From: Physcomitrium patens
Taxonomy: Eukaryota > Streptophyta > Bryopsida > Funariales > Funariaceae
NCBI RefSeq assembly: GCF_000002425.4
Contig: NC_037253.1
Location: forward strand, 12,307,145 to 12,371,144
Reading direction: 5' to 3'
DNA length: 64,000 nt
Position 1 is the stretch's first letter. Every line of letters starts with the position of its first letter. Position numbers and translations under genes: made by a program. Below the pieces are notes generated by a model. It worked only from the letters and a program-made list of their open reading frames with translations. It made no database searches and had not been told where the DNA came from. This document shows, in pieces, positions 2,309-63,416 of the stretch.

Positions 2309-2852
2309 TGTCACAAACATACATACTTACTTTAATAATTACCTATATGATTAAATAGAAGTATGTAAAAGTAGATTAATTTTATAATATCTTTTAGAAA
2401 AGCTTCTTAGAAGCTTTATAGATACATTTTTGACTTTATATGTATTTATAGTTGACTTTTAGGTTAGAAACTTAGTCAATAAATTAGCCACATATCACAT
2501 GTATAGGTAGCTTGTAGAATAAGCTAACTATGTAGTACACACATAGAAAACTTATCTTACGAGTTAAGACATGTGACTTACAAACTCAACACATATTAGA
2601 GGTCTTATAGAATATTGCCACATAACTCTTAGGCGGATAGTATATATAGAAGTAGAACTAAAGCCTTCTTCATTCTTGTGAATTATTTTTTTGCTCTAAT
2701 CTAGATTCAAGAGTCTTTAATTTTCTTGAGTTTTAGCAATAGCCATTCCAATTTTTTTTCAATATATATATTTTTTTACTTTTATTTTGTCATACTTCTT
2801 TAAAAAAAATTCTACTTATTTATTTACTTTTATTGAATTCTTGTCCTTGATA
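2309..2852 (+). repeat. Element A 5' LTR
   Basis: It starts TGTCACAAACATAC and ends CCTTGATA, where the usual CA end has become TA. It shares with the B-family LTRs the paired GAAGC/GCTTC block near 2400, a TATATATA box near 2641 and the later CAATAGCCATTCCA block. A decayed primer site (TTAATAAGAAT) follows after 2 nt, as in B, G and I. Confidence 0.75.
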
Positions 2853-2873
2853 AATTAATAAGAATACACTTAT

Positions 2874-3063: not shown

Positions 3064-3825
3064 AATATAAATATAATGATAAAAATGCAAGAGCAATAGA
3101 GGAAGTTAATGCTTACAATGCATCAACTCAATTTATTACTATGAAGAATAATAAGAATGATATGAAGGAAAGATATAGAGATGATTGGAGTTATTTCAAC
3201 ATCTACACCAAATCATATCCCTTTTCTTATAGTAGAACATCCTTCTAGTATTAAAGAATCAAAGGTTGCACTATCTAAAAAGTTTGATGGTATAAGATCT
3301 AAGTTTCATGGATTTATCAATCAAATATAATTTGTGATTGAACTTCAATTCCAAAGCTATTCTACTCTAGAATCACAAGTTAGATTTATTAATATATTTA
3401 TTTTAGGTCCAACATTATCATAGTTTCATCTTTTTTTAAATGATGCAATTCAATACTTGATAATTTGGAGGCTTTTTTGGCAGAGTTTTGATCCATATAT
3501 GGAGAACATGATACAATTCACGTTGCAACCAATAAAAGCCATATTTTACAACAAAGCAATCAATCAATAATATTGTATGCTTCATAATTTTATCAACTTG
3601 CAATTAATATTAAGTAGAATGATGCTATATTTGTTAGCCAATTTTTATACAAATTAAAATATGAGGTAAAAAAAATTAATGTTCAACTTATGTGATCATC
3701 AAACATTGAATCAAATAATTGACTTTGCTTTGAAGTGTGATAATCAACTTTTAAAATTTTGATTTGATAATCGCATAAGTTCACTTCAATATTACTATAA
3801 TTTAATGGCATATATATATCTCTTC

Positions 3826-8141: not shown

Positions 8142-10101
8142 TGTCATAGAAATTCTATCATAGACATACATACTTATTTAAATAATTATCTATATAATTA
8201 AATAGAAGTAGGTAAAAGTAGAAAAAAATAGATTGATTTCATAATATCTTCTAGAAAAGCTTTCTAAAAGCTTCATAGATATATTTTTGACTTTATACAT
8301 ATTTATAATTGATTTTTAGGTTAAAAACTTAATCAATAAATTAGCCACACATCACATGTTGTCATGTTATAACACGACTATATGGTGAAAATATAAATGA
8401 AAAAGATTTTATTAATATTTAATTATCTTAGTTGATAAGAGCTTAAGACAATTTAGAAAGGCTTTATAAAAGCTTTTAGAGTATTTTCTTGTCTTGATAG
8501 CTAGTAGATAAAAGCTTGTCATTAAATTTTCTTTCTAGATTGTTGAAACTATTTTACTACTTTAGAAAGGCCATAAATTAATAAAAATAAGGTAGATGAA
8601 GTAAAAAAATGATATGATAGATAATAAGGTGAAGTTGAGGATAGGAAAGTGCTGAAAAATTTCTAGGATAAGTAGGATTTATATTTAGGAGATGTCCATT
8701 TGAGGGTCGGGGTCGAAACCAGACCTCTAGCCACTAAAACGGCTGCTTAGGGCAAAGTAGGGAGGCATTTGGAGATCGGGATTTGAAATTGGATAGCTAG
8801 CTTCAAGTTCCTTCCAAAGGTATAAGATTTAATTTTATAGGATTTGAGAAGACTTTGCAATCATTGTTCAAAGTCAGTGTTTGTATTCGTGATTTGGATT
8901 TTTTGCAATAAAGTTAGGGCTAGTATTCTTGATTGTTTTGTAAAATTGAAGAAACATCTACTGTTCAAATTTTAGAATTATCTAGATGGTTGAGTATGCC
9001 AAGTTCATGCAAAATTTTGTATTAATCTAACGGTACGGATAGAGGATATTTGATCATTAGTATAAAGAGGTATCAAAAGTTGGCAGATTGGGGTTGTTTA
9101 GGGTTTCTATAATATCTAGAGATCTACTAGCTGGAATAAGGTGAATTTTAGAGTAATAAGTCAAGGACTTAAAGATAGAGCTGCACACAAAGTTTGAATG
9201 AGAATTAACGATTGGAGAAGGAGAAACTGTAATTCAAAGTTCATCAGCAACTTTCTATATGGCGGTCAAGGGATATCAGTGTGGATTTATGGCGTTTTCT
9301 TGCAATCTATAAGTTGGATTGGATTGAAACTTCTTGAGCATTTAGAAGACTTGCAAAGATACTAGTGGTAGAAGTTTTATAACAATCGAACGGTTAGATT
9401 GAGAATTACAGCTTACCAAAGCTCACTGTCTAGAATTAGGATTTAAAAATTAAAAAATTAAAAATTAATTTTTTTTAAAAAAAAAATATGAATAAAAAAA
9501 TAAAATAAAACTAAAAAATTAACAAAAGAATTTGTACTTATAATAGCTTGAAATCATTAAAAATAGTGTTTCTAAGCACTTCGTAATGGGATTAAGCTTT
9601 TACATTGAAATCCAAAATAGTTTGTATTTAGATGGTTGGAACCTATTAGACTACTTGCATACTTGCAAATACTTGCAAAACATTGTTTTATCTTCCACAG
9701 CTAGATGCCCGATGCATTCTCAAGCAAGATAGCACGTAATACAACAATGTGTGGATAGCTTGTAAAACAAGCTTATTATGTGGCGTACATATAAAAAACT
9801 TGACTTGTAAATTAAAAAATGTGATTTAAAAAATAAATATATATTAATAGTTTTGTAGAATATTATCACATAGCTCTTAGGTAGATAGTATATATAGAGG
9901 TAAGAATGAAGCCTTCTTCACTCTTCTCAATTCTTTTATTGCTCTAGTCTAAATTCAAGAGTCTTTAATTTTTTTATCTTTTGGCAATAGCCATTCCAAT
10001 TATTTTTTTAATATATATGTCTCTTTATTTTTTTTTTGTCATACTTCTTTGAAAAAAGTTTTACTTGATTATTTGCTTTTATTGTATTTTTATCCTTGAT
10101 A
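8142..10101 (+). repeat. Element A 3' LTR, interrupted by a solo LTR
   Basis: The left part (8142-8359) and right part (9747-10101) together match the 5' LTR of A. The match breaks within the ACATCACATG block, exactly where a TG..CA sequence has been inserted. The right part carries the TATATATA box near 9892 and the CAATAGCCATTCCA block, and ends CCTTGATA. Confidence 0.75.
8360..9746 (+). repeat. Solo LTR (about 1.39 kb) of a second, long-LTR Gypsy family
   Basis: The segment begins TGTCATGTTATAAC and ends ATACAACA. It is flanked by ATGT on both sides (8356-8359 and 9747-9750), with the fifth base of the duplication diverged (C versus A). It has no coding domains and splits the 3' LTR of element A cleanly, so it is a solo LTR left by LTR-LTR recombination. 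Related copies appear at 28740-31892 (interrupted), about 33877-35415 and, in reverse, at about 790-2300. Immediately 5' of one of these (28120-28730) lies a Gypsy integrase remnant, which links the family to Ty3/Gypsy. Confidence 0.75.
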
Positions 10102-14057: not shown

Positions 14058-14263
14058 TGTCACGGACATACTCATGTAAGCTAGTAATTACATATACAAA
14101 TAGGTGGAAATAAGTAAAAGTAAGTAAAAGTAAGTTAATTCTATAGTATTTAATATGGAAGCTTCTTAGAAGCTTCATAGACGTTGCTTTGACTTCATAG
14201 GTGTCTTTAATTGACTTTTTGGATTAGAAACGTGGTCAATAAGTTGGCCATGTGCCACACATA

Positions 14264-14343
14264 TTGTTAGCTTGAAGATCAAGCTAACTATGTGGCCCAC
14301 ATGTTGTTAGCTTGAAGATCAAGCTAACTATGTGGCCCACATG
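14264..14343 (+). repeat. 40-bp tandem duplication inside the 5' LTR of B
   Basis: Two adjacent identical 40-bp units (14264-14303 and 14304-14343) each contain GTTAGCTTGAAGATCAAGC. The 3' LTR has one unit. The unit itself contains the inverted repeat GCTTGA/TCAAGC. Confidence 0.85.
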
Positions 14344-14441
14344 TAGAAAAACTTGCCTTGTAAGTCAAGGCATGTGTCCTATAAAGTCAACACATATTAA
14401 AGGTCCTATAGAACGTCGCCACGTAACCTCTAGTTATATAG

Positions 14442-14483
14442 TATATATAGAGACAAGAGTGAAGAGGGCTTCATTCTTGTCAA
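14442..14483 (+). promoter_or_regulatory. Core promoter and U3/R hairpin of element B 5' LTR
   Basis: TATATATA lies at 14442-14449. The segment ATTCTTGTCAA (14473-14483) begins 31 nt after the first T of the box, where plant transcription usually starts. The upstream arm GACAAGAGTGAAG (14452-14464) and the downstream arm (14469-14481) form a 13-bp stem with a 4-nt loop. One C-to-T change in the downstream arm, relative to the 3' LTR, gives a G-T pair. The start site is predicted from spacing, not measured. Confidence 0.6.
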
Positions 14484-14662
14484 CTCCTTTCTTACTTCCA
14501 GTCTAGTTTCAAGGGTCTCTAGTTTTTCTTATCTTTTGGCAATAGCCATTCCAGTTTCTCTTTCAATATACATATTTGGTTATTTATATTTTGTTAGCTT
14601 TCTTTGAGTGAAGGCTCACTTGTCTGAATTACTTTTTTCATCAAGTTCTTGTCTTTGACAGA

Positions 14663-14673
14663 TTGACAAGAGT
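14663..14673 (+). other. Putative self-complementary primer-binding site of element B
   Basis: TTGACAAGAGT lies 2 nt after the end of the 5' LTR. It is the perfect reverse complement of ACTCTTGTCAA at 20305-20315 in the 3' LTR, and differs at one base from the 5' LTR copy. It does not match the usual initiator-Met tRNA primer site. This arrangement matches the self-priming known for Tf1 of fission yeast. That it works this way here is inference. Confidence 0.6.
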
Positions 14674-14681
14674 ACACCTAC

Positions 14682-14787
14682 AATATCAGAGCTTTGTCTA
14701 ATCTTGATTAAGAGTAGATTACCCCTTTTTCTTAATAAAATATAAGCATATTAGAAGTTACGGATTACCTTCTTCTAAACTGATATT
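14682..14787 (+). other. Leader module of element B (single copy)
   Basis: It is bounded by AATATCAG (14682-14689) and CTGATATT (14780-14787), a perfect 8-bp inverted repeat. Inside are two GATTACC motifs about 48 bp apart. The first bases resemble part of a tRNA-Met primer site (TATCAGAGC), but they sit about 22 nt from the LTR and lack the leading TGG. Element I has three such modules. Confidence 0.65.
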
Positions 14788-14890
14788 GTCCTTAGTATTT
14801 TCTTTGTTTTTAAGTCCTCTCTTCTATTTGTCTTGAGCGATATTAGACATCTTTTCTTTTCTAAGTGTTATCATAGCAGAACTTATTGAA

Positions 14891-19929: not shown

Positions 19930-20492
19930 TGTAACGGACATACTCCTGTAAGCTAGTAATTATATATACAAATAGGTGGAAGTAAGTAAAAGTAAGTAAA
20001 AGTAAGTAAATTCTATAGTATTTAATATGGAAGCTTCTTAGAAGCTTCATAGATGCTGCTTTGACTTCATAGGTGTCTTTAATTGATTTTTTGGATTAGA
20101 AACATGGTCAATAAGTTGGCCATGTGCCACACATGTTGTTAGCTTGAAGATCAAGCTAATTATGTGGCCCACATGTAGAAAAACTTGCCTTGTAAGTCAA
20201 GGCATGTGTCCTACAAAGTCTACACATATTAAAGGTTCTATAGAACATCGCCATGTAGCTACTAATTAGATAGTATATATAGAGACAAGAGTGAAGAGGG
20301 CTTCACTCTTGTCAACTCCTTTCTTACTTCAAGTCTAATTTTAAGGGTCTCTAGTTTTTCTTGTCTTTTGGCAATAGCCATTCTAGTTTCTCTTTCAATA
20401 TACATATTTGGTTATTTATATTTTTTTAGCTTTCTTTGAGTGAAGGCTCACTTGTCTGAATTTCTTTTTTCATCGAGTTCTTATCCTTGACA
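19930..20492 (+). repeat. Element B 3' LTR (563 bp)
   Basis: It starts TGTAACGGACATAC and ends CCTTGACA. TATATATA lies at 20274-20281. The U3/R hairpin is perfect: GACAAGAGTGAAG (20284-20296), loop AGGG, CTTCACTCTTGTC (20301-20313). The predicted transcript start ACTCTTGTCAA begins at 20305. Confidence 0.9.
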
Positions 20493-29349: not shown

Positions 29350-31493
29350 TGAGAGGCCAAATTTCACCACTTGATGAAACCTATGCCACATAACAAGTCC
29401 AAGAGGTGGAATTGGAGAGCTACGAATTGTGTAATTATTAGATTAATTTAAATCTTTATATTAAAAATTTAATTAATTTTAGGCCTTCCAAGCAATGGTT
29501 ACCAACATTAAATTAACATGTTAAATAAAATTTACTATGCAAACATAATAAAAATAATTAACTAAGTTATTACTATTAATTGACCATAAGAATAAAAATT
29601 TAATTTTGAACTAAAAGCTAAGTTAAAAATTAAGTTACAAAAAAGTTACTGTTAAAAATTAATATTAAAAAATTATGTTAAAATTTAAAATTAAAATGTT
29701 AAGTTAAAAGTTAAAATTAAAAGGTTAAGTCAAAAAAAGTAATTTAAAAGTTAAAATTAAAGGTTAAGTGAAAAATTAAAGTTAAAAGTTAAAAGTTAAA
29801 CTTAAAATTTATTAGCCAAATAGTGAAATGTCGAGCTTACAATTCACTGTGAAGACGATAGTAAAAATAAAGTGAGAGGTAAAAGCGAAGATACCTTGAC
29901 AACATGTAAGGGTTGAAGGCAGGAACCCCCTTCTACTCCAAAATTTGCCAAAATTTGTAATCGGCTTCAATTGGAATGATTCTTAGCTTGTTGCAAGGCT
30001 GACTTGAAGACGCTTTTGATCCAACAATTCTTGTTGCAATCTAATGATCCAATCATGAGAATTCCTCCTTTGAAGTTGAGTGATCCAAACTGCTGTGGTG
30101 ACTAACCCTCTTCACTTAGAGATTCACTAAAAATTCAGATTGTATTAAAATTCACCAAATCTTATGCTTTTCAGAGCTTAGCTTATAAATCTTGATTCTC
30201 CCAAAATTTCAAATAAATCCAATCACTAGGCACAGAGAAATACCTTTCCAAACTTGATTGATTCAAACTGCAAAGGCAATCGACTCCCTCAAACTCAAAA
30301 ATTCACAAAAAATTCCTTCTTATTCCAAATCAAGAAAATCTTATCTTTTTGGAAAGCTAACAACAAAAGCTACAACTATTCAAAATCTCACATTGAGACA
30401 ATAGAAATTGAGTGACTGACTAAAGAAAATCCGAGGCCCCTGAAACCCTTGGGGTATTTGAAAGGCTGAGGAGATATCTACCTCAATGAAACATATTTTA
30501 AAACTTAATGACCATCCTTCACAATACAAAATCCATACATACACAATCACAAGGTTCACAATGAGAATTAAAATCTAAATAAAATTGAAATTAGGGTTTC
30601 GGCCAAATTTTGGCATGGCTCCGCCCTTCACCCAAAAGAGGAAAGAGAGAGGGCTTGGAAAACCAAGCCTCTCTTATACAATTGAGTGGAGGCTCGTAGA
30701 AGGGTGGCTACATCTCTACCCTTGATTTTTAAGATCCCTAATCTAGATCTACGACCTTCATTCATCCAAGAGCCAATCTCGTTACCAAGGCTCATGGCTC
30801 TTGTAAGTGGTCAAGAAAGCATTTTTTTTGTAAATCTAACTTCATTATTGTGTTCAAAACAACTTTTTAAGCTAAGATCGACTACTCACATGCCTCAATC
30901 CATGCTCAATTATAATTTTTATGGAAGTTTTTACTTACAGGGATCTTGGCAATTTTTGTGAAATTCTTCAAAATGAGAATTTCTTTGCTTCTCTTGTATT
31001 TTGAAGGAGAGGTTGCTGATCTTGTTTTCTTCACTCCACGAGGTAAATCCGGTGCCATCATTGCATTAAAAAGACTCCCATTAAGTAGAAGAACCACCAT
31101 GCCACTTAAATTTTTTGAATTTGGAGGAAAATCCAAAATTATCATTGCTAACTTCCCTAAATCTTTTAGAGAATTATAATTCCAACTCCTAAATCATGTG
31201 AATGATTATAGTTGCACTCATAGGCTTTTATTCAACCCTTATAGTAATGTCTAACAACCTCTAAATTATTAAACTAACTAAGTTGCTATTCTAATTTTCT
31301 AACTCTTATCACTTTAGTCCTAATTAACCTAATTCAAGGAATTAGGCTATGATTTATACCATGAGGGGTTGTAATCCTAAAAATTCTATAAAACTAAATT
31401 CTACTTATATAAATCTTAATATAACATGTTTAATTATCATAAAATAGAAAAATAACAAAAATTTAAATTTTAGAGTATAATTGAGAACTCATA
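29350..31493 (+). repeat. TG..CA-type repeat, copy 1 (2.14 kb), nested in a long LTR
   Basis: It begins TGAGAGGCCAAATTTC and ends near GAGAACTCATA. TAATC (29345-29349) and CAATC (31494-31498) are the likely target duplication with one C/T change. The flanks match contiguous sequence in the solo LTR at 8360-9746. It aligns with the copy at 36218-38259. No RT, integrase or protease domain was found, so it is probably a solo LTR or a non-autonomous element. Short open frames (30686, 30946) are shared by both copies but resemble nothing I know. Confidence 0.7.
30646..30675. other. Conserved stem-loop in the 2-kb repeat (copy 1)
   Basis: AGAGAGGGCTTGG, loop AAAA, then CCAAGCCTCTCT: a stem of about 12 bp with one bulged G. 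It is present in the same form in copy 2 at about 37407-37439. Confidence 0.65.
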
Positions 31494-33876: not shown

Positions 33877-35415
33877 CATATTACTTTGTTGTATTGTAAC
33901 ACAACTATATGGTGAAAGATGATAGTATGGATTTTATTATAGAAGAGCCAAGTTAAAGGATAAAGTAAAAAAAAATATGAATAAAAGATGAAAGGTAATA
34001 AAATTTTTAATAGTAATATTGTCTTTTTAGAAAAGTAACTTCTACTTACTTTGTAGGGCCATAATAAGGCAAAATAAAGTAGATTGGAAAAACAAATGAT
34101 ATAAGCATCTTTAAAAAAAATTTAAGAATAAATTTTAGTAAAAATTATCTAAAAAAACTAGATATTGATACTCGGAGAGAGTTGGCTATGAACCAAGGTC
34201 GAAATCAGACCTTGAGGCACAAAACCAAGCCTTGGCGATGATTTTGGGATTCTTTGGTAAATCAAAGAGTAAAGTTAGAGAGAAAAATTGATAAGATTTG
34301 AATAAACATTATTTTGGAGTAATTTGAATGTGTATTGATTTGTAAGAGCTTTGCAAAGTCGGAGTTTATTTTGGGTGACTCTAGATTTATGAAATAAAGT
34401 AGATAATACTTTATAGATAATTTTGTAAGTTTAGCAGTAGATTTATAAGTAATTTTTTTTAGATTTGTAGGTGTAGTTGTGTTTAATGTGTATTATGAAT
34501 TTGGATTTGATCAAAGGTTAGATTAAAAAGCATGAAGGTTTTTATTAGTTATGGTCTTATAATTTAAGGTTTTGAAGACCACTAAGGTTTTCTTAGATAT
34601 CTATCAATTTGTTAATTAAATTAAAGATTTTTTTTTATAGAGGTAGTTAGCTTAATTTTTAATAAGTATATAAAATTTGGAAGGAAAGTAATAGTTCAAT
34701 TAGGGATAATTGGCTCTAGAATATTGGCATCAAGGTTACAAAAAGAGGCCGGTCGATACCTGAGCACATTTTTGAGATTATCATCTATTTGGTTATTTTG
34801 ATCTTTTTCAATTTTTTTTGTATTTGTTTTTAACTTAATTGTTAAGAAATATTCAAAATTTGAGTTAAAATCAATGATTCATTTATTAGTTATTGAGGTT
34901 TAAATGTATTGTAGAAATTACTTAGGATTATTTAGGATTTGATTTAGGATTAGGATTAGGGTTTTGGATTCATTTAAGATTTGATTAGAATTAAGGTTAG
35001 GATTTTGGATTGATTTAAGATTTGATTAGAATTAGGGTTAGGATTTTGGATTGATTTAAGGTTTGGTTTGGATTTAAGATTTGGTTTAGGATTTGGTTTG
35101 TCTAGGATTTAATTAAGGTTCAATTAGTATTTGATTAGGATTTATCTGGGATTTTTTTAGGATTTATTAGGATTTTTTTAGGATTTGATTAAGATTTGAT
35201 TAGAATTTGACTACCATTTGTCTAAGATTTATTTAAGATTTGGTTAGGACTTATTTAAGATTTATCTAGGATTTGATTAGAACTTATTTAGGATTTTTTA
35301 GGATTTATTAAGAATTCGATTAGGGTTTGATTAAGATTTATTTGAAATTTGATTAGGATTTATTTAGGATTTGACTAGGACCATTTAGGATTTGACTAAG
35401 ATTTGATTAAGATTT
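33877..35415 (+). repeat. Long LTR of element E (partial), with AGGATTT array
   Basis: GTAACACAACTATATGGTGAAA near 33897 matches the start of the solo LTR at 8360. The segments near 34180 (GGTCGAAATCAGACCT) and 34370 (GTGACTCTAGATTTATG) match internal parts. The terminal block is missing where the sequence joins the LTR of element C near 35420. Confidence 0.55.
34915..35415 (+). repeat. Degenerate AGGATTT / TTAGGATT array
   Basis: About 500 bp consists of variants of GGATTTGATTA, GGATTTATTTA and TTAGGATTAGGGTTTTGG. A few units come close to the plant telomere repeat TTTAGGG, but most do not. The mirror-strand version lies at 1137-1400. Confidence 0.8.
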
Positions 35416-35419
35416 GACT

Positions 35420-35632: not shown

Positions 35633-35864
35633 GATTGAAAAAAATATACTTACAATATCAAAGCTTTGTCTTTTCTTAATTAAGTGTGGATTATCCATTT
35701 TTCTTGATAAGACTTAAGCATATTAAGAGTTGTAAATTATCCTCTTCTAAACTAATATTGTCCTTAGTATTTTTCTTTTGTATTTAAGTCTTTTCTTCTA
35801 TTCATCTTAAGAAATATTATATATCTTTCCTTCTTTAAGTATTATTATGGCAGAGCTTTTTGAA

Positions 35865-45580: not shown

Positions 45581-45705
45581 AATATCAATTTTGAAGAGGA
45601 TAATCTGTAACTTTTAATATGCTTATGTTTTATCAAGAAAAAAGAATAATCTACTCTTAATCAAGAAAGGACAAAACTTTGATATTGTATGTGCGTTCTT
45701 GTTAA
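45581..45705 (-). other. Leader module and primer site of element G
   Basis: The leader is bounded by AATATCAA (45581-45588) and TTGATATT (45679-45686), a perfect 8-bp inverted repeat. Next to the LTR, with a 2-nt spacer, is the minus-strand primer site TTAACAAGAAC (45695-45705), a decayed version of the B primer site. Confidence 0.6.
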
Positions 45706-45707
45706 TC

Positions 45708-46251
45708 TATCAAGGAGATAAATTGAAAGAAGATGCATAAACTTGTAGAAATTGTATCAAAAGGAATGTGATAGAATAAAAAAAAGTATGTATATTCAAG
45801 AAAGAAATTAAATGGCTATTGTCAAAGACTAGAAAATATAAGACTCTTGAAATTAGACTAAAAGCAAGAAAAGAGTTGACAAGAGTGAAAAAGGCCTTAT
45901 TCTTGCCTCTATATATACTACTTAACTAAGAAATATGTGGCAATATGCTATAAGACCTCTAATACGCGTCCAACTTGCAAAACACATGTTTAATTTGTAA
46001 GACAAGTTTCTTAGGTGTGCGCCATATGTCCAACTTGTACTACAAGTGATCAATATGTTGACACGTGGATTCCTTATTGGCAAAGTTTTCAACCTATCAA
46101 TCACCTATAGACATGTATAAAAGCAAAGCAGCATTTATGAAACTTCTAAGAAGCTTTCTATAAGATATTATCATATTTATCTATTTTGACTTACTTCTAT
46201 CTATTCTTATTATCTAGATAATTATGAAGATAAATATGTATGTCTGTGATA
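45708..46251 (-). repeat. Element G 5' LTR (544 bp)
   Basis: It matches the LTR at 39898-40443 throughout. On the plus strand it runs from TATCAAGG to CTGTGATA, both ends having lost the canonical C or G through transitions. Confidence 0.8.
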
Positions 46252-49859: not shown

Positions 49860-50513
49860 AAAAAAAGTCGCAACTTAAAAAAAATTCTTCATGAATATAT
49901 TATAATAATTAGCAAATTCAAAAAAGCATTGCACATTTCTTATTGTTCTTGAAATCTTCTAATCTATAATAGTCAAGATCTTCTTCAAATCTAGTATTAA
50001 ACCTTCATTAGAAATAATTTACCTTAAGAAGTCAACTTGAGTAGTGTGGAATATAAACTTTTTCATTTTGGCATATAATCTTCCATCTCTAAGTTTTTGT
50101 AACACATAATGAATATGAAGTTCATATTCTTTTATGTTCTTAAAATAAATTAGAATATTGTAGAATGAATTGACTACATAAAAAGAATATATTGATAAAA
50201 ACTTGGCTCTAAACTTCATATGCCATTTAAAATCTCCAACAAGAGCCTCTATTTTATTTGTAAAGAAAAAAATAGATCTCTACAAATATTTATAGACTAT
50301 CAAAGACTTAATAAGATCACTATTAAGAATAGGTATATCCTACCTTTGATTTTAGGACTAATTGATTAATTCAATCAAGCAAAGATCTATACAAAAATAG
50401 AACTATAAGAAGAATACAATCTATTTCATATAAAATAATGGAATAAATAGAAAATTTCTTTTCAAACTAGATATGGATATTTCAAATATAATATCTTGCA
50501 TTTGGACTCATAA
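49860..50513. pseudogene. Fragments H (left): chromovirus RT pieces in opposite orientations
   Basis: On the minus strand, 49870-50170 reads RT thumb/connection sequence (NILIYFKN, LQKLRDGRLYAKMKK). From about 50180 the plus strand reads the RT N-terminal region (KEYIDKNLALNFICH, then LFVKKK). It runs to FGL at 50509, where element I is inserted. The same plus-strand RT resumes at 57028 after element I. Confidence 0.65.
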
Positions 50514-50552
50514 TGTTAGGGACATAGTCCTTAGACCTTTCTAGAGACAAGT

Positions 50553-50599
50553 TTCTAGAACCTTCTAGAAAGAAGTCTCTAGAAACTTCCAGAAGATTC
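50553..50599 (+). promoter_or_regulatory. Two perfect four-unit heat-shock elements in U3 of element I
   Basis: TTCTAGAACCTTCTAGAA (50553-50570) and GAAACTTCCAGAAGATTC (50582-50599) each contain four alternating GAA/TTC units at exact 5-bp spacing, the known binding pattern of heat-shock factors. A further GAATATTC follows at 50603-50610. The same sites occur in the 3' LTR at 56604-56621 and 56633-56650. Heat induction is inference. Confidence 0.65.
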
Positions 50600-50806
50600 C
50601 TTGAATATTCTCTTAGGATATTCTTTAAAGATTCCCTAAAGATTCCCTAAAGATTCCTTTAGAAGGCTCTAGAAGATTCTTAGAATATTCTAGTAGATTC
50701 TAGGAAGTTACTTGAGAAGCTTCCTAGCTCTTGGGTAGTTGCTCGAGAAGCTTCATAGTTCTTGGGAAGCTTCTTGATGCGCTTCCTTAGAACCATAGGC
50801 CAGTAG

Positions 50807-50849
50807 TATATATAGGAGTCGAGGCTGAAGAGTTCTTCAGTCTCGACAA
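50807..50849 (+). promoter_or_regulatory. TATA box, predicted start site and U3/R hairpin of element I
   Basis: TATATATA is at 50807-50814. AGTCTCGACAA starts at 50839, 32 nt after the first T, and is the predicted transcript 5' end. The arms GTCGAGGCTGAAG (50818-50830) and CTTCAGTCTCGAC (50835-50847) form a 13-bp stem (one G-T pair) with a 4-nt loop. The geometry is the same as in element B although the arm sequences differ. Confidence 0.65.
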
Positions 50850-50978
50850 CACATCTCTTGAAGCTCTAGCTCAATTCTCTTGGCGTTGCTCTTGTACTCA
50901 TCTGATAATCTAGTACTTGTTATTTCTTATTGAACTTCTTGTTTAGATTTCTTGTTTGTATTTTTGGTCCGTGACAGT

Positions 50979-50989
50979 TTGTCGAGACT
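50979..50989 (+). other. Putative self-complementary primer-binding site of element I
   Basis: TTGTCGAGACT lies 2 nt after the LTR end and is the perfect complement of AGTCTCGACAA (50839-50849), the predicted first 11 nt of the transcript. No initiator-Met tRNA primer site abuts the LTR. Tf1 of fission yeast primes reverse transcription with the first 11 nt of its own RNA, and this copy has the parts for the same mechanism. Confidence 0.7.
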
Positions 50990-51000
50990 ACCTTTATCTT

Positions 51001-51374
51001 AATATCAGAGCTGAATCCTTCTTGTTTGAGAGCGGATTACCCCTCTTCTTGAAGGTATTCTAGCGCTTTAGGGGTTGCGGATTACCTTCCTCTAAACTGA
51101 TATTTTCTCAATCACAATATCAGAGCTTAGTTCTTTGAGGCAGAGAGTGGACTACCCCTTTCCTTGGAGATACTTGAGCGTTCTAAGGGTTGCGGATTAC
51201 CCTCTCTTAGACTGGTATTAATTCCTTCTTTTTGTTTAGCATAGCTAGTAAAAAAGACTGTTAACATCGATTTCAGAGCTTTGCCTTCTTGATAGAGTGC
51301 GGATTACCCCTCTTCTCGAAAGCATTGAGGCATTTTTAGAGGTTGCGGATTACCCTCCTCTAAAACTGAAATCG
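51001..51374 (+). repeat. Triplicated leader module of element I
   Basis: There are three modules of 104-107 bp: 51001-51104, 51116-51219 and 51268-51374. Each is closed by inverted repeats: AATATCAG/CTGATATT, AATATCAG/CTGGTATT and CGATTTCAG/CTGAAATCG. Each has CAGAGCT near its start and two GGATTACC or near-GGATTACC motifs about 50 bp apart. Elements A, B and G have one module. The matched changes at the ends suggest an RNA stem. A role in packaging, dimerisation or translation is only a guess. Confidence 0.75.
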
Positions 51375-51493
51375 TTTAGTGTTTTTTTTCTTTTCTCCGA
51401 GTAGGTTTCAGTGACAGGTAGTGCTACAATTTTCTCCAAGAGACTTAGCAATTTTTTCTTCTCTCAAAATTTTAATCCATCTATTCTCTAAAT

Positions 51494-52543
51494 ATGGAAG
51501 TAGACCAGGTCATAGACAGTGCATCTCCGCAAGTAGACAATAGAGTGGCAACTCTTGCATATCTTCAAGCTCTTATGAATAGTGTACGAAAGGAGATTGC
51601 ATTTCTTTGCAATCCAAGTAAAGAACCTCAAATTGATCTAGTGACCGAAAAAGCTAGACGCGAAATTCATAGCCTACAACAAGAGATTATTCGACTGAGA
51701 GAAGCAAGACATGTGTCACATACGACCCCTATGGATATTTCAAGGATTAGTACGAAAGAACCAAAAGCGAGTATGCCATACAAGTTTGATGGAACAAGAG
51801 CCAACTTCCGAGGTTTTGTGCAACAAGTACGGCTTTACCTACGCCTATACCCTTTTCGTTATCCGAATGGATTTACCCAGGTTGCTTTCATAGGTACTCT
51901 TCTATCAGGAAATGCTCGCTCTTGGTTTGCTCCACTATTGGAGAAGGATTCTCCAATATTGTACGACCTAGAGGCTTTCATAGAGAGACTTACTGCTACG
52001 TTTGGAGATAGTGATCGAGAAAGAGTGGCTGAAAGAAAGATACAAAATCTGCGACAAGGATCACGTTCTGCTGCAATCTATGCTGCAGAATTTCAACAGC
52101 TTACATGTGATCTTGATTGGAATGATAAGGCATTCATGACACGATTTCGATATGGACTGAGAGATGATGTCAAGAACTTATTGATCACCATGCCTAAGGT
52201 GGATACTTTAGAAGAACTTATATCTCAGGCAATTATTTGTGACAATCGCCTCTTTGAATTACGACAAGAAAGACGATCAGGCTGGAGAAATGATGGAGCA
52301 TTTGCTACATTTTCAAAAGGTCCAGAGAATCACTCCACAGATCCTGAACCCATGCAAATTGATGCGGTACGTTTCAAACCCCTCACAGCTGAGGAAAGGA
52401 AGCGACGGTTTGAACAAAACTTCTGTTTATATTGCGGAGAAGCGGGCCATAAAGCTGTAGATTGTCGGAAGAAACAAAAGCCTCAAACAACAAGACTCAG
52501 GAGTACAAGCATGCAAGAAAACAAGGACGCCCAGCCACAATAG
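51494..52543 (+). CDS. gag: Gag polyprotein of element I
   Basis: An intact 349-residue frame. Residues 1-75 are charged and probably helical. About residues 95-255 form the plant Gypsy capsid region, with [12 protein letters not shown] near 97-108, [10 protein letters not shown] near 138-147 and LRQGS near 189. A CCHC zinc knuckle, [14 protein letters not shown], lies at 311-324 with all four ligands present. The last 25 residues are basic and polar. Gag forms the particle and binds the element RNA in the cytoplasm. The ATG at 51494 is the first in a good position after the leader. The gene ends at TAG 52541-52543, overlapping the pol frame by about 90 nt in the -1 phase. It is the only gag in the window without lesions. 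Confidence 0.93.
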
Positions 52544-55500
52544 GGACCGTGCGACTGGACATCTCAACATCCAAAATTAATCAAGGTCCCTTTCTCTCAA
52601 CTCAACCTTCAGATTGTTTTATGGTACCTTTATATCTGGATATTCAAGAACTACAAGTCGATGCTTTATTAGACTCGGGTGCATCCGCTTGCTTTATAGA
52701 TGAAGAGTTTGCCAAGCTTCACAATATTTCTCTTGTAAAGAAACTTAAGCCTGTCCATGTAGAAGTCATAGACGGACGACCATTGTCTTCGGGCAATGTT
52801 ATCCATGAAACTAAACCATTGAAGGTACGTCTTGAAAACCATGAGAGCAATATTGTGTTTAATGTTATCAAGACCCCTTCATGTCCTATCATTTTGGGAC
52901 TATCTTGGCATGATAGATATAATCCATTGATAGATTGGAAGTTGCGGAAAGTGACATTTCCAACAAACTCCTTGAAGGTGGAATTTGCCAAGACAATGTC
53001 TAGAAACAAATCCTTGTTTATAGGTGCAAGGGCTTTCATGAAGGAAGCCAAGCAAAATACACCTCTTGTCATCTTCGCAACTCCGACTCGAGAAGATGCA
53101 ACTCCGACTTTGGTTATTCCAAAGCAGTATGAAGAATTCAAAGATGTCTTTGAAAAGAAGAATGCTGATATGCTGCCAGAGCATCGACCCTATGACTGTG
53201 CCATTGAATTGCAAGAAGGAGCACAACCACCTTTTGGACCAATCTACAATTTGTCGCAGACGGAGTTGACTGAGTTGCAGAAGTACATTGACGACAATCT
53301 AGCCAAGAACTTCATCCGTCATTCGAAGTCGCCAGCTGGGGCACCAATCTTATTTGTGAAGAAGAAGGATGGCTCATTACGGATGTGCGTGGACTATCGA
53401 GGTCTCAACAAGGTGACAAAAAAGAATCGCTACCCACTGCCTTTGATCTCTGGTCTTCTAGAACAACTTGGGCGTGCAAGGATCTTTACAAAGATTGACC
53501 TAAGGAGAGCTTACAACCTTGTGCAAATTAAGGAAGGAGATGAATAGAAGACAGCGTTCCGAACAAGGTATGGCCATTTTGAATACAATGTCGTGCCATT
53601 TGGTCTTACTAATGCTCCAGCGGTCTTTCAACACATGATGAATGACATCTTTTGAGAGCATCTAGACGATTTTGTTGTCATCTATCTAGATGATATTTTG
53701 ATATTTTCTAAGAACGAGGAAGAACATGAGAAGCACGTTCGTCTGGTACTCAAAAAACTACGGGAGCGAGGACTCTATGCCAAATTGGAGAAGTGCTTAT
53801 TTCACCAAACTGAGATGGAGTTTTTGGGATTCATCGTGACTACGGAAGGCTTGAAGATGGATCCAAAGAAGGTGGAAGCAATCATGTCTTGGGAAGTTCC
53901 GAAGACGGTTAGGGACGTACAATGTTTTCTTAGATTTGCTAACTACTATCGGATCTTCATCAAGAATTATTCTCAAGTTGCTGCCCCCCTCACTCGGTTA
54001 ACTCATAAGGACAAGCTCGAATGGGGACCTATCGCAAAAAAAGTATTTCAAGATTTGAAGATGGTATTTACTACAGTTCCAATCTTGGTACATCCGGACT
54101 TTACAAAGGCCTTTTATTTGGAGACAGATGCTTCGGATTTTGTTTTGGGAGCTGTACTTTCACAGATGGGCGTAGATGAGAAGCTCCATCTAGTTGCGTT
54201 CTATTCTCGAAAATTCTCTGCTGCTGAGATCAACTATGAGATCCATGATAAGGAACTCCTTGCTATAGTAGATTCTTTCCAAGAGTGGCGCCATTTTCTT
54301 GAAGGAACTGCACATCCAGTGACCGTGTATACGGATCACAAGAATTTGGAATATTTTATGTCGGCTCGAGTTTTGAATCGGCGTCAAGCTCGGTGGAGTA
54401 TGTCGCTATCCAGGTTCGACTTTGTTATTACTTATCGGCCTGGGAAGCAACAAGGGTTGTCCGATGCATTATCAAGGAGATCATATCTCGCGCCAAAGGC
54501 TGGAGATGCAGCATTTGATCAATAGTGCACGACATTGTTGAAGCCAGAGAAATTTCGGCTCAACGTAGTTATTGTACTAATTGATGCTGACTTCCTCGAC
54601 CAGGTACGGGCCGCAACCATTGAAGATTCTCTAGCCCTTGATATCAAGCAACATGCTAGTGATGATAAATTCAAGATGGAAGGAGATCTAGTATATTTCG
54701 AAGAGCGGTTGTATATCCCAAAAGGGCCAACACGACTCCGAGTTCTTCAATCTCGTCATGACTTTCCAACTGCGGGACATTTTGGATTCAATAAGACCTT
54801 GGAACTTATTTCCCGCGATTTCTGGTGGCCTCAAATGTGGAAGGATGTGAAAGATTTTGTTGTATCTTGTGACATTTGTTCAAGATCCAAAAATCCTCGA
54901 CATCGGCTTATGGACTTCTACAGCCATTGCCTATTCCGCGCCGACCATGGTCTTCGGTTTCCATAGACTTTATTATGGATCTACCACCATCGAATTCATT
55001 TGACAGTATTTTTGTTGTCGTAGACCGGCTTACAAAGATGGCGCATTTTGTCCCTTGCAAGAAGACATCGTCAAGCGAAGATACAGCAAGACTCTTTCTT
55101 GATAATGTGTATCGATATCATGGTCTACCAGATGATATCGTATCGAATCGAGGAACCTAGTTTGTGTCAAAGTTTTGGAAATCTCTTTTTGAAATATTGA
55201 AGATGGATATCAAGCTTTCTTCGGCATTTCATCCTCAAACGGACGGCCAAACAGAACAGGTGAATCAAGTTTTAGAGCAATATTTACGTTGCACCATCAA
55301 CTATGAACAAGATGATTGGATCGCATATCTACTGCTAGCCGAGTTCGCATATAACAACACCCTTCATGCGTCAACTCAACAAACGCCATTCTTTTCCAAT
55401 TATGGATACCATTCGAAGCTTGACTTATGGAGTTCGTCAACGATTAACAATCCGGCAGCTGAAGGATTGGTGAAGGAGCTTTCACAGCTTCAAACTACAT

Positions 55501-56021
55501 TGAAGCTTCAATTGCAAACTGCCCAAGAATCTTACAAGGCGTCCGCGGACAAATTTCGAAATCATGCACCTAAATTCACGATTGGAGACAAAGTTTGGCT
55601 GCTTCGACGAAATATTAAGACCAAGCGGCCATGTGACAAATTGGACTATCGGAGATTGGGACCATTTGTTATCCAGAAGCAGATCAATCCTGTAGCGTAT
55701 CGTCTGGAGTTACCAGCTACTATGAAGTTACATCCTGTCTTTCATGTTTCTTTGTTGGAGCCTTATCGAGAATCGTCTTTTCCTGGAAGAGTACAATGTC
55801 CACCACCTAGCATAGAAATAGAGAACCACGAAGAATACGAGGTGGAAAAGGTCCTGGATTCACGGCAAAGACGGGGTAAATTAGAATACTTTGTGCATTG
55901 GAGCGGTTACGATATTAATGAACGAACATGGGAGCCGGCCGAAAATCTCGCAAATGCACCGCAAAAGGTACAGGATTTTCATCGACGATATCCTGAGAAA
56001 CCCAAGCCGGTTCGACGATAG
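52453..56021 (+). pseudogene. pol: Pol polyprotein of element I (PR-RT-RH-IN-chromodomain), five lesions
   Basis: The pol frame opens at 52453 inside gag, one base back, so it would need a -1 ribosomal frameshift. Protease: [10 protein letters not shown] with DSG at 52672-52680. [14 protein letters not shown] near 53378, PFGLTNAPA near 53599, YLDD at 53683-53694. RNase H: TDASDFVLGAVLSQ near 54124. Integrase: the HHCC region spans about 54757-54880, the first catalytic Asp lies in DFIMD near 54967, the second is Asn (SNRGT near 55144-55158), and TDGQTEQ is near 55239. GPF lies near 55660. A chromodomain (about 55828-55960) has FVHWSGYD and TWEP. Lesions are TAG 53545, TGA 53653, TAG 54523, a one-base deletion near 54908 and TAG 55158. 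After the deletion the frame stays open to 56021 apart from the TAG at 55158. Confidence 0.92.
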
Positions 56022-56550: not shown

Positions 56551-56564
56551 AAAGGAGGAAGTGA
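56551..56564 (+). other. Polypurine tract of element I
   Basis: AAAGGAGGAAGTGA directly precedes the 3' LTR. It is the expected plus-strand primer. Confidence 0.8.
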
Positions 56565-57027
56565 TGTTAGGGACATAGTCCTTAGACCTTTCTAGAGACA
56601 AGTTTCTAGAACCTTCTAGAAAGAAGTCTCTAGAAACTTCCAGAAGATTCCTTGAATATTCTCTTAGAATATTCTTTAAAGATTCCCTAAAGATTCCCTA
56701 AAGATTCCTTTAGAAGGCTCTAGAAGATACTTAGAATATTCTAGTAGATTCTAGGAAGTTACTTGAGAAGCTTCCTAGCTCTTGGGTAGTTGCTCGAGAA
56801 GCTTCATAGTTCTTGGGAAGCTTCTTGATGCGCTTCCTTAGAACCATAGGCCAGTAGTATATATAGGAGTCGAGGCTGAAGAGTTCTTCAGTCTCGACAA
56901 CACATCTCTTAAAGCTCTAGCTCAATTCTCTTGGCGTTGCTCTTGTACTCATCTGATAATCTAGTTCTTGTCATTTCTTCTTGAACTTCTTGTTTAGATT
57001 TCTTGTTTGTATTTTTGGTCCGTGACA
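56565..57027 (+). repeat. Element I 3' LTR (463 bp)
   Basis: It aligns without gaps with the 5' LTR and differs at six bases. The self-priming complement AGTCTCGACAA is at 56890-56900 and the heat-shock elements are at 56604-56650. The right flank is CATAA. Confidence 0.97.
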
Positions 57028-58021: not shown

Positions 58022-58551
58022 TATCAAGGATATTAAATTCAAAGAAAATCTCAATATACTCTTAAGTCATTCCAAAAGACTAGGAAATCACTCAAAGATG
58101 ATACTATTGAACTAAAATTGCTATTACCATAGATAAGAAGACTAGAATATCTTGAAACAAGACTAAAGACTAAAAAGATGTTGATAAGAGTAAAGAATGC
58201 TTCACTCTTGCTTCCATATATTCTATCTAATTAGGAGCTACATGGCAATATTCTATGGGAACTCCAATACATGTTGACTTTGATAGATACAAATTTAACT
58301 TGCAAGACAAGTTATCTATATATGTATCATATAATTACCTTGTTCCATAAGCTATTAATATATGTGACACGAGATTAAGTTATTGACCAAGTTTTTAATC
58401 TATCAATCAACTTAAATCACATGAAAAGTAAAAATCATATCTATAAAGCTTTTACAAAGATTTTCTAAAAGATATTATAAAATTAATCTATATTTATTTA
58501 CTTTAATTTAGTCATATTTGTAATTATTAGAATAAATATATATATCCATGA
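58022..58551 (-). repeat. Chromovirus LTR (fragment H), minus strand
   Basis: It matches the B-family LTR in reverse: TATCAAGG start, paired GCTTC/GAAGC relics, a TATA box relic near 58217 and a CCATGAGA end. It appears to be the 5' LTR of the minus-strand gag fragment beside it. Confidence 0.65.
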
Positions 58552-61649: not shown

Positions 61650-62132
61650 TTTTCCTTGCAAAAATACAATTATTCAAGTCTGCACGATGAACACAAAAAT
61701 TAAATATTAGTAATGTCCGCAAAAAAGACAAGTTCAAATGACACGAAAAGACTTAATCACCTTCAAGTATATCGGCAAGTGTTCGTGAACTGCAACCGTT
61801 GCTTTAGTAACGAAGTAGTCTTCGTGCCGAAAGTGTCAATTGATGGTCTCGATTAAAAACATAGTTTGCCACATTTCTAGGTCAAGATTTAAAGATTTTT
61901 ACAAAACCAGAATTGATTTGGCACAACAAAATTTGTATTCTGTTACTTGTTGCTGGAACTTCCAAAGAGCATCGAACCCTGTCTAAAAGTGAAAGGCCAC
62001 TCAACTCGAGAAGTGGCCGGGTATTCGAAGTTATCATATTACACCCACTTCCAGGGTATTGAAAGGATATCGCGTTGCACCGAGGTCCGGGTATGGTAAC
62101 CCTAACAAGCACAGACATCGTCAACCCTGTTT

Positions 62133-62167
<35 letters not shown>

Positions 62168-62218
62168 CACCTCAACCGATTGTTGTGTCGGTGGGCAGTT
62201 TTGGAGCGGGAGGCAGCG
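61650..62218. promoter_or_regulatory. Upstream region and 5' UTR of the Mago gene
   Basis: This is the space between the divergent CIPK relic and the Mago start codon. It includes a CT repeat at 62134-62167, a common feature of plant 5' UTRs. I see no certain TATA box. Confidence 0.5.
62134..62167 (+). repeat. CT microsatellite in the Mago leader
   Basis: Almost pure (CT)n, ending about 50 bp before the ATG. Open frames reading through it on either strand are composition artefacts. Confidence 0.85.
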
Positions 62219-63416
62219 ATGGCTTCAGTGCACGCCGAGGAGCTTGGCGAGTTCTATGTGCGTTACTACGTTGGCCATAAGGGCAAGTTCGGTCACGAAT
62301 TTCTGGAGTTCGAGTTCCGTCCCGATGGCAAGCTCCGCTACGCCAACAACTCCAACTACAAAAACGACACCATGATTCGCAAGGAGGTCTTTCTTACCCA
62401 GGCCGCGCTCAAGGAGTGCCGACGCATTATTACTGATAGCGAGGCAAGTGTCCCTTGCTACATTTTTTTTTTTTTTTTTTTTTTTTTTTTCATTATTCTT
62501 TGAGGCTATGTACATTTCAAGGCATGGTTAGGGTAGTACATGTCAGTTTAGGGTTTGGGAATAGTTCGCTGTTCTTGCGCGCTGGGTTTTTCCCCTTCTA
62601 TCTCCTTGGAGCTCTTTGATATAAGCCATGTGGATTATATTTTGCAATGTGTCGGGCTGATCACTCGCAACCCTGTGCTCCCATTGTCTTGGGCTTTGCT
62701 TGAACCTTGGGACTCTCTATGTTAGCTTATTCAGTTTTGGTTCTTTCTCAAGTGGGCATAGTGAAATGCTGGAAGCATGTTAGCAACTTGGCAATTGTTA
62801 GGTAGTCGACCATTTGGGTCCCCTGTTATCTGATCACTCTGATGTTCAATCCTGGATCTTTTTGGAAGCGAGGTTGTTTAGTAATGAAGAATACAATGTC
62901 ACTGATTAGAACACGGCTTTACTTATCTTAGTGGATGAACCTTACTCTAACTGCTCTTTCTTGGATTTTTCAGATATTGAAAGAAGATGATAACAACTGG
63001 CCAGAACCTGATAGAATTGGACGACAGGAGCTCGAGATTGTGATGGGAAACGAGCATATATCCTTCACTACATCAAAAATTGGTTCCCTTCTTGATGTAC
63101 AGAGCAGCAAGGATCCTGAAGGTCTTCGGATTTTTTACTATCTTGTCCAGGTACGTTTATTGAAGAATTGTGTTACCTCTCTGTGCTGGACTTCAACGTG
63201 GCTTCAACTTTAGGGTATCCCTTTTAACACCTGGAGGTCCTTTGCTTGAAATTTACTTGAAGTAATCCAAGGTAGAGGTGTTGTGCGTTGGGTTAGAGCC
63301 TGTGTAAGCCAATGATTGCCTTTTAACGCTGCTATTTTGGCACTACTATTTTGCAGGACTTGAAATGCTTCGTTTTTTCGCTCATCGGTCTGCATTTCAA
63401 GATTAAGCCTATCTAA
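62219..63416 (+). CDS. MAGO: Protein mago nashi homolog (exon junction complex core)
   Basis: Three exons, 62219-62443, 62974-63150 and 63357-63416, give 153 codons, the usual plant Mago length. Exon 1 encodes [39 protein letters not shown] and the [14 protein letters not shown] helix. Exon 2 encodes [23 protein letters not shown] and the [14 protein letters not shown] segment. Exon 3 encodes [19 protein letters not shown]. Both junctions keep phase 0. Intron 1 begins GCAAGT and ends CAG, a GC-AG intron; intron 2 is GT-AG. Mago pairs with Y14 (RBM8A) in the exon junction complex, acting in mRNA localisation, splicing memory and decay. No lesion is visible, and this is the only clearly functional host gene in the window. 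Confidence 0.97.
62463..62490 (+). repeat. T-run in Mago intron 1
   Basis: An uninterrupted T tract of about 28 bp, 20 nt into intron 1. It is low complexity and probably variable in length. Confidence 0.85.

Follow-up and report, generated by a model that had tools for sequence, protein, structure and literature searches.

The retrotransposons in this window of the Physcomitrium patens genome (the whole stretch of DNA analysed here, 64,000 nucleotides) very probably prime their minus-strand DNA with their own RNA, the self-priming mode known from Tf1 of Schizosaccharomyces pombe, whose primer binding site (PBS) is reported to be complementary to the first 11 nucleotides of its RNA (PMC7175516). 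The anatomy of the elements, the sharp 11-nt edges of the complementarity, compensated changes between two families, a footprint in another genome and the clade to which the elements belong all fit Tf1-type self-priming, as the first-pass annotation of this DNA had proposed. Thousands of copies and a second genome together provide strong sequence evidence for a tRNA-free start of reverse transcription in plants, one that for this lineage has so far been merely predicted in the literature we found.

Two elements on the plus strand of the window, called I and B here, carry a Ty3/gypsy pol with a chromodomain as judged by Pfam. The LTRs of element I (50513-50976 at the 5' end and 56564-57027 at the 3' end) are 98.7% identical over 464 nt. 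They enclose a gag frame (51482-52540; Retrotrans_gag, 3.4e-14), a frame for the protease and the first part of the reverse transcriptase (52453-53544; RVP_2 and RVT_1), one for the second part of the reverse transcriptase and RNase H (53656-54522; RT_RNaseH, 1.5e-37), and one for the C-terminal part of the integrase with its SH3_Tf2-1 domain and chromodomain (55161-56018; SH3_Tf2-1, 2.2e-21, and Chromo, 4e-17). In element B, whose 5' LTR (14058-14660) and 3' LTR (19930-20492) are 88% identical, RVT_1, rve, SH3_Tf2-1 and Chromo domains were found; the U3 of its 5' LTR also has a 40-bp tandem duplication (14250-14344) that is missing from the 3' LTR.

The PBS of element I (50979-50989) lies 2 nt past the 5' LTR, behind a GT spacer, and is the exact reverse complement of AGTCTCGACAA (50839-50849), the presumed RNA nucleotides 1-11 and start of R, which begin 32 nt from the first T of the TATATATA (TATA) box at 50807-50814; a script match reproduced this part of the first-pass annotation in every detail. 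For element B that annotation paired the 5' PBS with the 3' LTR, and this match is confirmed with a qualification: the PBS (14663-14673, spacer GA) is by script match the reverse complement of ACTCTTGTCAA in the 3' LTR (20305-20315), 31 nt from the first T of the box, but the primer in B's own 5' LTR (ATTCTTGTCAA, 14473-14483) pairs with it at just 10 of 11 positions, with one C-to-T difference. Each element, then, has a PBS 0-5 nt past the LTR that is complementary to its own presumed RNA start. The presumed +1 is an A after a C (CA at -1/+1), and the distance from the TATA box is 31-32 nt in the copies that match at 11/11, which fits the start site of a TATA promoter, the RNA start itself being presumed.

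I and B differ at primer positions 2, 6 and 8 (G/C, C/T and A/T, respectively), and the PBS compensates all three changes. The evidence for the covariation of primer and PBS that the first-pass annotation had put forward comes mainly from this one split between I and B, at three positions, with the copies within a family sharing descent. Its argument that complementarity so preserved is not due to chance has also held up: none of 20,000 dinucleotide-shuffled versions of the I LTR contained an 11/11 complement at any position, and for the B LTR 5 of 20,000 did so; the fixed distance between TATA box and primer makes a chance match rarer still than these counts. Thirteen LTR-leader junctions were scored, 12 of them from 264 kb around and including the window and one from the second genome described below. 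Five matched at 11/11 (I, the second-genome element and three B-type junctions), five at 10/11, two at 9/11 and one at 8/11. Leader homology identified eleven of these junctions; the other two, at region positions 31409 and 158191, both with the spacer AT, were picked by the complement itself and so are no independent evidence. Three of the 13 junctions would gain a further pair upstream of +1 (position -1) and one a further pair beyond +11 (position +12); since extension beyond both ends is at the level of chance, the match is one of 11 nt with sharp edges. The eight imperfect junctions together hold 12 primer/PBS mismatches, 11 of them C/T or A/G and one G/T, an excess that would be expected of methylated, silenced copies. 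In all six copies folded, the predicted probability of primer:PBS pairing was 0.83-0.95.

Genome-wide (470,438,890 bp), the B-type arrangement of primer, N(155-185) and PBS occurs at 3,614 places, as against none in the control read backward. For the I region, at least 40 matches were scored among 2,318 first-look candidates and are known by score alone; all 40 are at 98-100% over the 231-nt query, which spans the PBS. The abundance of the B pair in this 470-Mb genome resembles that of RLG1, a very abundant chromodomain Gypsy element of Physcomitrium patens reported with 5,092 complete elements (PMC7466625), and B may be RLG1.

A scan of GTDB genomes gave one relative, a 3,847-bp contig (CADCWO010000091.1, here L001) in a cyanobacterial MAG, presumably as a eukaryotic contamination. 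It is 93% identical in RT-RNase H and has a GC content of 47.7%. Its primer, PBS (282-292), spacer and TATA distance are the same as those of element I. In an alignment of the two, 281 of 398 positions are identical; the longest run of identity, 49 nt (50802-50850), takes in the TATA box, a hairpin discussed below and the primer, while the second longest, 18 nt (50972-50989), goes from the end of the LTR to exactly the last base of the PBS. Identity outside the longest run is 66.5%. As read from this alignment, the two longest runs are a clean footprint of the primer region and of the PBS. A search of the same MAG with the LTR-leader region of B gave no match, and scans of IMG/VR for relatives yielded none that was confirmed.

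Among the best 120 hits to the RT-RNase H sequence, the few with species names are from a fern (Adiantum) and from fungi. In a tree of 33 RT-RNase H rows (28 of them hand-picked from 240 listed proteins, with a midpoint root and without Tf1, sushi or Tcn1 reference rows), I, B, L001 and Adiantum fall in a clade of nine rows (100/98). This is enclosed, along with Rhizopus, Aspergillus, Podosphaera, Endocarpon and Ambystoma, in a clade of 19 rows (100/100) that stands apart from all six angiosperm rows; the amphibian Hyperolius is outside it, and L027, from the same MAG as L001, inside. The seed-plant rows carry no clade labels, and the tree rejects a place for the moss elements in any clade represented by these angiosperm rows. 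The chromodomain of element I (only I was aligned) has Y, W and Y in line with an aromatic cage of the CDYL type. By RT-RNase H, and as far as the rows used show, the elements are Tf1/sushi-group chromoviruses of the Tcn1 type. Plant Tcn1, reported from mosses and club-mosses only, has been placed with Tf1/sushi, and its chromodomain also has an aromatic cage; Neumann and others predicted self-priming for the majority of its elements, by a rule of at least 10 bp of complementarity situated 0-5 bp past the LTR, and for no other plant chromoviruses (PMC6317226). Self-priming is therefore less unusual for a plant chromovirus than the first-pass annotation supposed, having already been predicted in mosses and club-mosses, and the present case is a well-supported instance and not a first one. 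The fern protein in the tree (P0052, from Adiantum nelumboides) branches beside the moss-like elements inside the Tf1/sushi clade.

By analogy with Tf1, the 5' end of the RNA would pair with the PBS, the element's RNase H would cleave after nucleotide 11, and the released 11-mer would be extended as the primer. Plus-strand synthesis would copy the attached primer and in that way rebuild the PBS in every cycle; joint changes of the two would follow from this. As here, Tf1 is a Ty3/gypsy element with a chromodomain and a PBS complementary to the first 11 nt (for the moss elements, the presumed first 11); unlike here, its transcript start and cleavage have been shown, where those of the moss elements are presumed.

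The primer itself is part of a second structure, which the first-pass annotation had passed over. A hairpin with 13 bp in its stem and 4 nt in its loop spans -21 to +9, across the presumed transcription start, and primer nucleotides 1-9 belong to its right arm. In element I the left arm (50818-50830) lies in U3, the loop, whose letters differ among copies, at 50831-50834, and the right arm, which contains the primer nucleotides, at 50835-50847 as folded. The z score is -6.5 for I, -5.2 for the 5' LTR of B (14452-14481, 13 bp including one G-U pair), -5.3 for the 3' LTR of B (20284-20313, 13 Watson-Crick pairs), -7.1 for L001 and -4.2 for another copy; a sixth folded stretch (9902-9938), from a mutated copy and truncated within the left arm, reached just -1.95. 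The TATA-to-primer region could be tabulated for 31 LTR copies in the 264 kb, and eight of these have all 13 Watson-Crick pairs, or 13 of the 31 when G-U is counted. Over 32 rows (25 distinct), 87.7% of the pair cells are standard, compared with 43-59% when the arms are slid and 84.9 +/- 0.8% when shuffled, and seven of the 13 pairs have changes on both sides, compared with 4.0 +/- 1.0 in shuffles (a count reached in 1 of 500). Eleven loop forms are seen among the 32 rows, and conservation is lower in the left arm (0.81) than in the right (0.90). A scan of the 264 kb for perfect stems with a minimum length of 12 bp and a loop of 3-8, listed down to an arm GC of 0.25, returned eight sites; every one of them is at an R start of these elements, belongs to family B and has the same arm.

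From I to B, the left arm of the hairpin changes along with primer and PBS at positions 2, 6 and 8, and it has nearly the same sequence as the PBS. In the established model of reverse transcription the PBS tracks the primer, since the attached primer is the template for the new PBS; this leaves the change in the left arm unexplained, for which either selection on the hairpin or a further copying step is needed. Since the left arm is in U3, upstream of the presumed start, the RNA would allow the hairpin at the 3' copy of R and nowhere else. A correctly started RNA would carry the U3 left arm at its 3' end alone, closing over nucleotides 1-9 of R, and with the 3' primer copy masked, the true 5' end alone would pair with the PBS; from +10 on, R would stay open for the first strand transfer. 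We offer this masking, by which just the 5' copy would prime, as a tentative reading. Equally tentative is its fuller form, in which a hairpin confined to the 3' end might hide the wrong primer copy, primer, PBS and left arm might be a single three-way unit, and the border at +9/+10 might serve to free the strand-transfer sequence. The predicted energies, -19 to -23 kcal/mol for the hairpin vs. -12 to -16 for primer:PBS, and the result that the 32-nt hairpin stays closed in six of six copies when folded together with the 11-nt PBS were obtained with the U3-R sequence of the 5' LTR standing in for the 3' end. The hairpin raises a general question, namely how an RNA with its primer at both ends uses just one of them, which we did not find asked in the literature searched; in a moss expressing such an element it could be tested.

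That the hairpin is instead a feature of the promoter or of the DNA, or a guard against read-through transcripts that folds away their 5' primer copy, is about as likely a reading as masking. It sits between the TATA box and the presumed start, and a read-through RNA would have the left arm at the 5' copy as well. Against a purely promoter role, what is conserved in the arms is their pairing, through two-sided changes and G-U pairs, and the loop varies through its 11 forms; paired arms with a variable loop point to pairing in RNA rather than to binding of protein to DNA. The read-through guard is a close alternative that is compatible with masking, and both could hold. The hairpin over the self-primer seems new; no description of one at the U3/R border was found in the literature searched, which was mostly non-subscription. 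The words hairpin, palindrom-, inverted repeat and secondary structure are absent from the main text of PMC6317226, and word searches of PMC5445492 and PMC6934838 gave no hairpin over a self-primer at the U3/R border; such negatives are weak evidence of novelty.

The near identity of PBS and left arm also allows the thought that the PBS-like 11-mer is a by-product of a hairpin or of a promoter element at the transcription start, its complementarity real and of no use in priming. This is improbable: the PBS is at the canonical site past the end of the LTR, is sharply 11 nt long and has a footprint of its own between the two genomes, no alternative tRNA PBS that could do the priming was found in I, B or L001, and members of the clade are reported to be known or predicted self-primers (PMC6317226, PMC10085805, PMC7175516).

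More improbable still is priming by tRNA-iMet at a CAGAGC motif about 25 nt past the LTR, with the 11-nt complementarity serving some other use. In its favour, TATCAGAGC (51004-51012 in I, 14685-14693 in B) matches the PBS for plant tRNA-iMet over 9 nt, and a more distant chromovirus in the same MAG as L001 (L026, on contig C259) has TGGTATCAGAG just past its apparent LTR end. A scan of L026 for self-complements gave two pairs of 10-11 nt, neither of them at the TGGTATCAGAG site, and its PBS of tRNA-iMet type makes it a further apparent eukaryotic sequence in a cyanobacterial MAG. For I, B and L001, however, there is no TGG in the first 30 nt past the LTR, so the CCA end of the tRNA would not pair. 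CAGAGC there opens a leader module of about 104 nt that occurs three times in I (51002-51103, 51116-51219 and 51270-51372), once in B (14682-14790) and in others; the motif recurs in all three modules of I, in and beside the first strand of the stem that closes each. A three-way junction is the fold of each I copy (z -3.8, -2.2 and -3.4), and the B copy folds less clearly (z -2.0). With the structure taken from one of eight copies, 83.4% of the pair cells are standard vs. 48-60% when slid; 17 pairs have two-sided changes vs. 8.5 +/- 1.8 in shuffles (0 of 500 as high), which supports the structure, while the count of further pair types is no higher than in shuffles (92 of 500). The closing stem is altered on both strands in L001 and in module 3 of I; where CAGAGC reads otherwise, in L001, its partner strand has changed too. 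Priming by tRNA-Met at this motif, which the first-pass annotation had named as the alternative that could overturn self-priming, is rejected, the motif being one strand of a conserved leader RNA structure. The module carries GGAUUACC in both arms, and a search of the window against Rfam at gathering scores gave no match to it or to anything else; possibly, and this is a guess, it is a packaging or Gag-binding signal.

That the complementarity arose by chance in DNA rich in AT can be set aside. A de novo scan of the 264 kb did return 52 hits, many of which are simple AT repeats, vs. 56 in a reversed control (a weak control, as reversal keeps complementarity), but the shuffled LTRs, the 3,614 places vs. 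0 genome-wide and the same design in a genome of 47.7% GC all speak against it.

Among known systems, the Tf1 RNA is reported to form a pretzel, with helices between sequence adjacent to the PBS and LTR sequence downstream of the primer (PMC10085805). In the moss copies folded, the primer:PBS duplex is predicted, and no shared flanking helices of this kind were found beside the PBS. For the Tf1/sushi group we found no reported hairpin over the primer at the U3/R border, whereas one is present here. SM-Tcn1 of Selaginella moellendorffii is a plant Tcn1 element for which evidence of neither tRNA priming nor self-priming is reported (PMC2864245). The nearest published parallel that we found to the primer hairpin is the Conserved Hairpin Site of the fungal GalEa elements (Ty1/copia), which, as here, occurs without a tRNA PBS and has a loop less conserved than its arms; it is reported to lie directly past the 5' LTR, with one palindromic arm and no LTR complement found (PMC5445492). 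Unlike it, the moss hairpin is at the U3/R border, and one of its arms is the primer. Self-priming has been predicted in plants for the TAR lineage as well, which belongs to another superfamily, Ty1/copia (PMC6317226).

The decayed versions with a 2-nt spacer that had been listed for other copies in the window are there. Element A has a primer (2672-2682, plus strand) that pairs at 9 of 11 positions with its PBS (2855-2865, plus strand, spacer AA), and a minus-strand element near 45.7 kb pairs at 8 of 11 (primer 45876-45886, PBS 45695-45705, spacer GA). A truncated copy at 35.6 kb, which is not among the 13 junctions, has a plus-strand PBS at 35635-35645 (spacer GA) that by eye matches its R start at 9 of 11. 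Also outside the 13 is the copy at region position 166538, where the leader match is present and the best primer complement is merely 7/11. A variant primer seen once, AGTCGCGACAA, has a matched PBS at no place genome-wide, which rules it out as the mark of a third covarying family. The two AT-spacer copies (31409 and 158191, the latter in the window at 58181-58212 on the minus strand) may be a subfamily, with altered letters past the PBS. At position 7 these copies depart from B in primer and PBS alike, without a matching change in the left arm of the hairpin, and decay is a possible source of that pattern. Elsewhere in the window, an 11-bp unit, TAGGATTTGAT, forms a tandem array at 35103-35417 that adjoins an LTR remnant, and the first part of a Mago nashi gene is found on the plus strand at 62063-62500.
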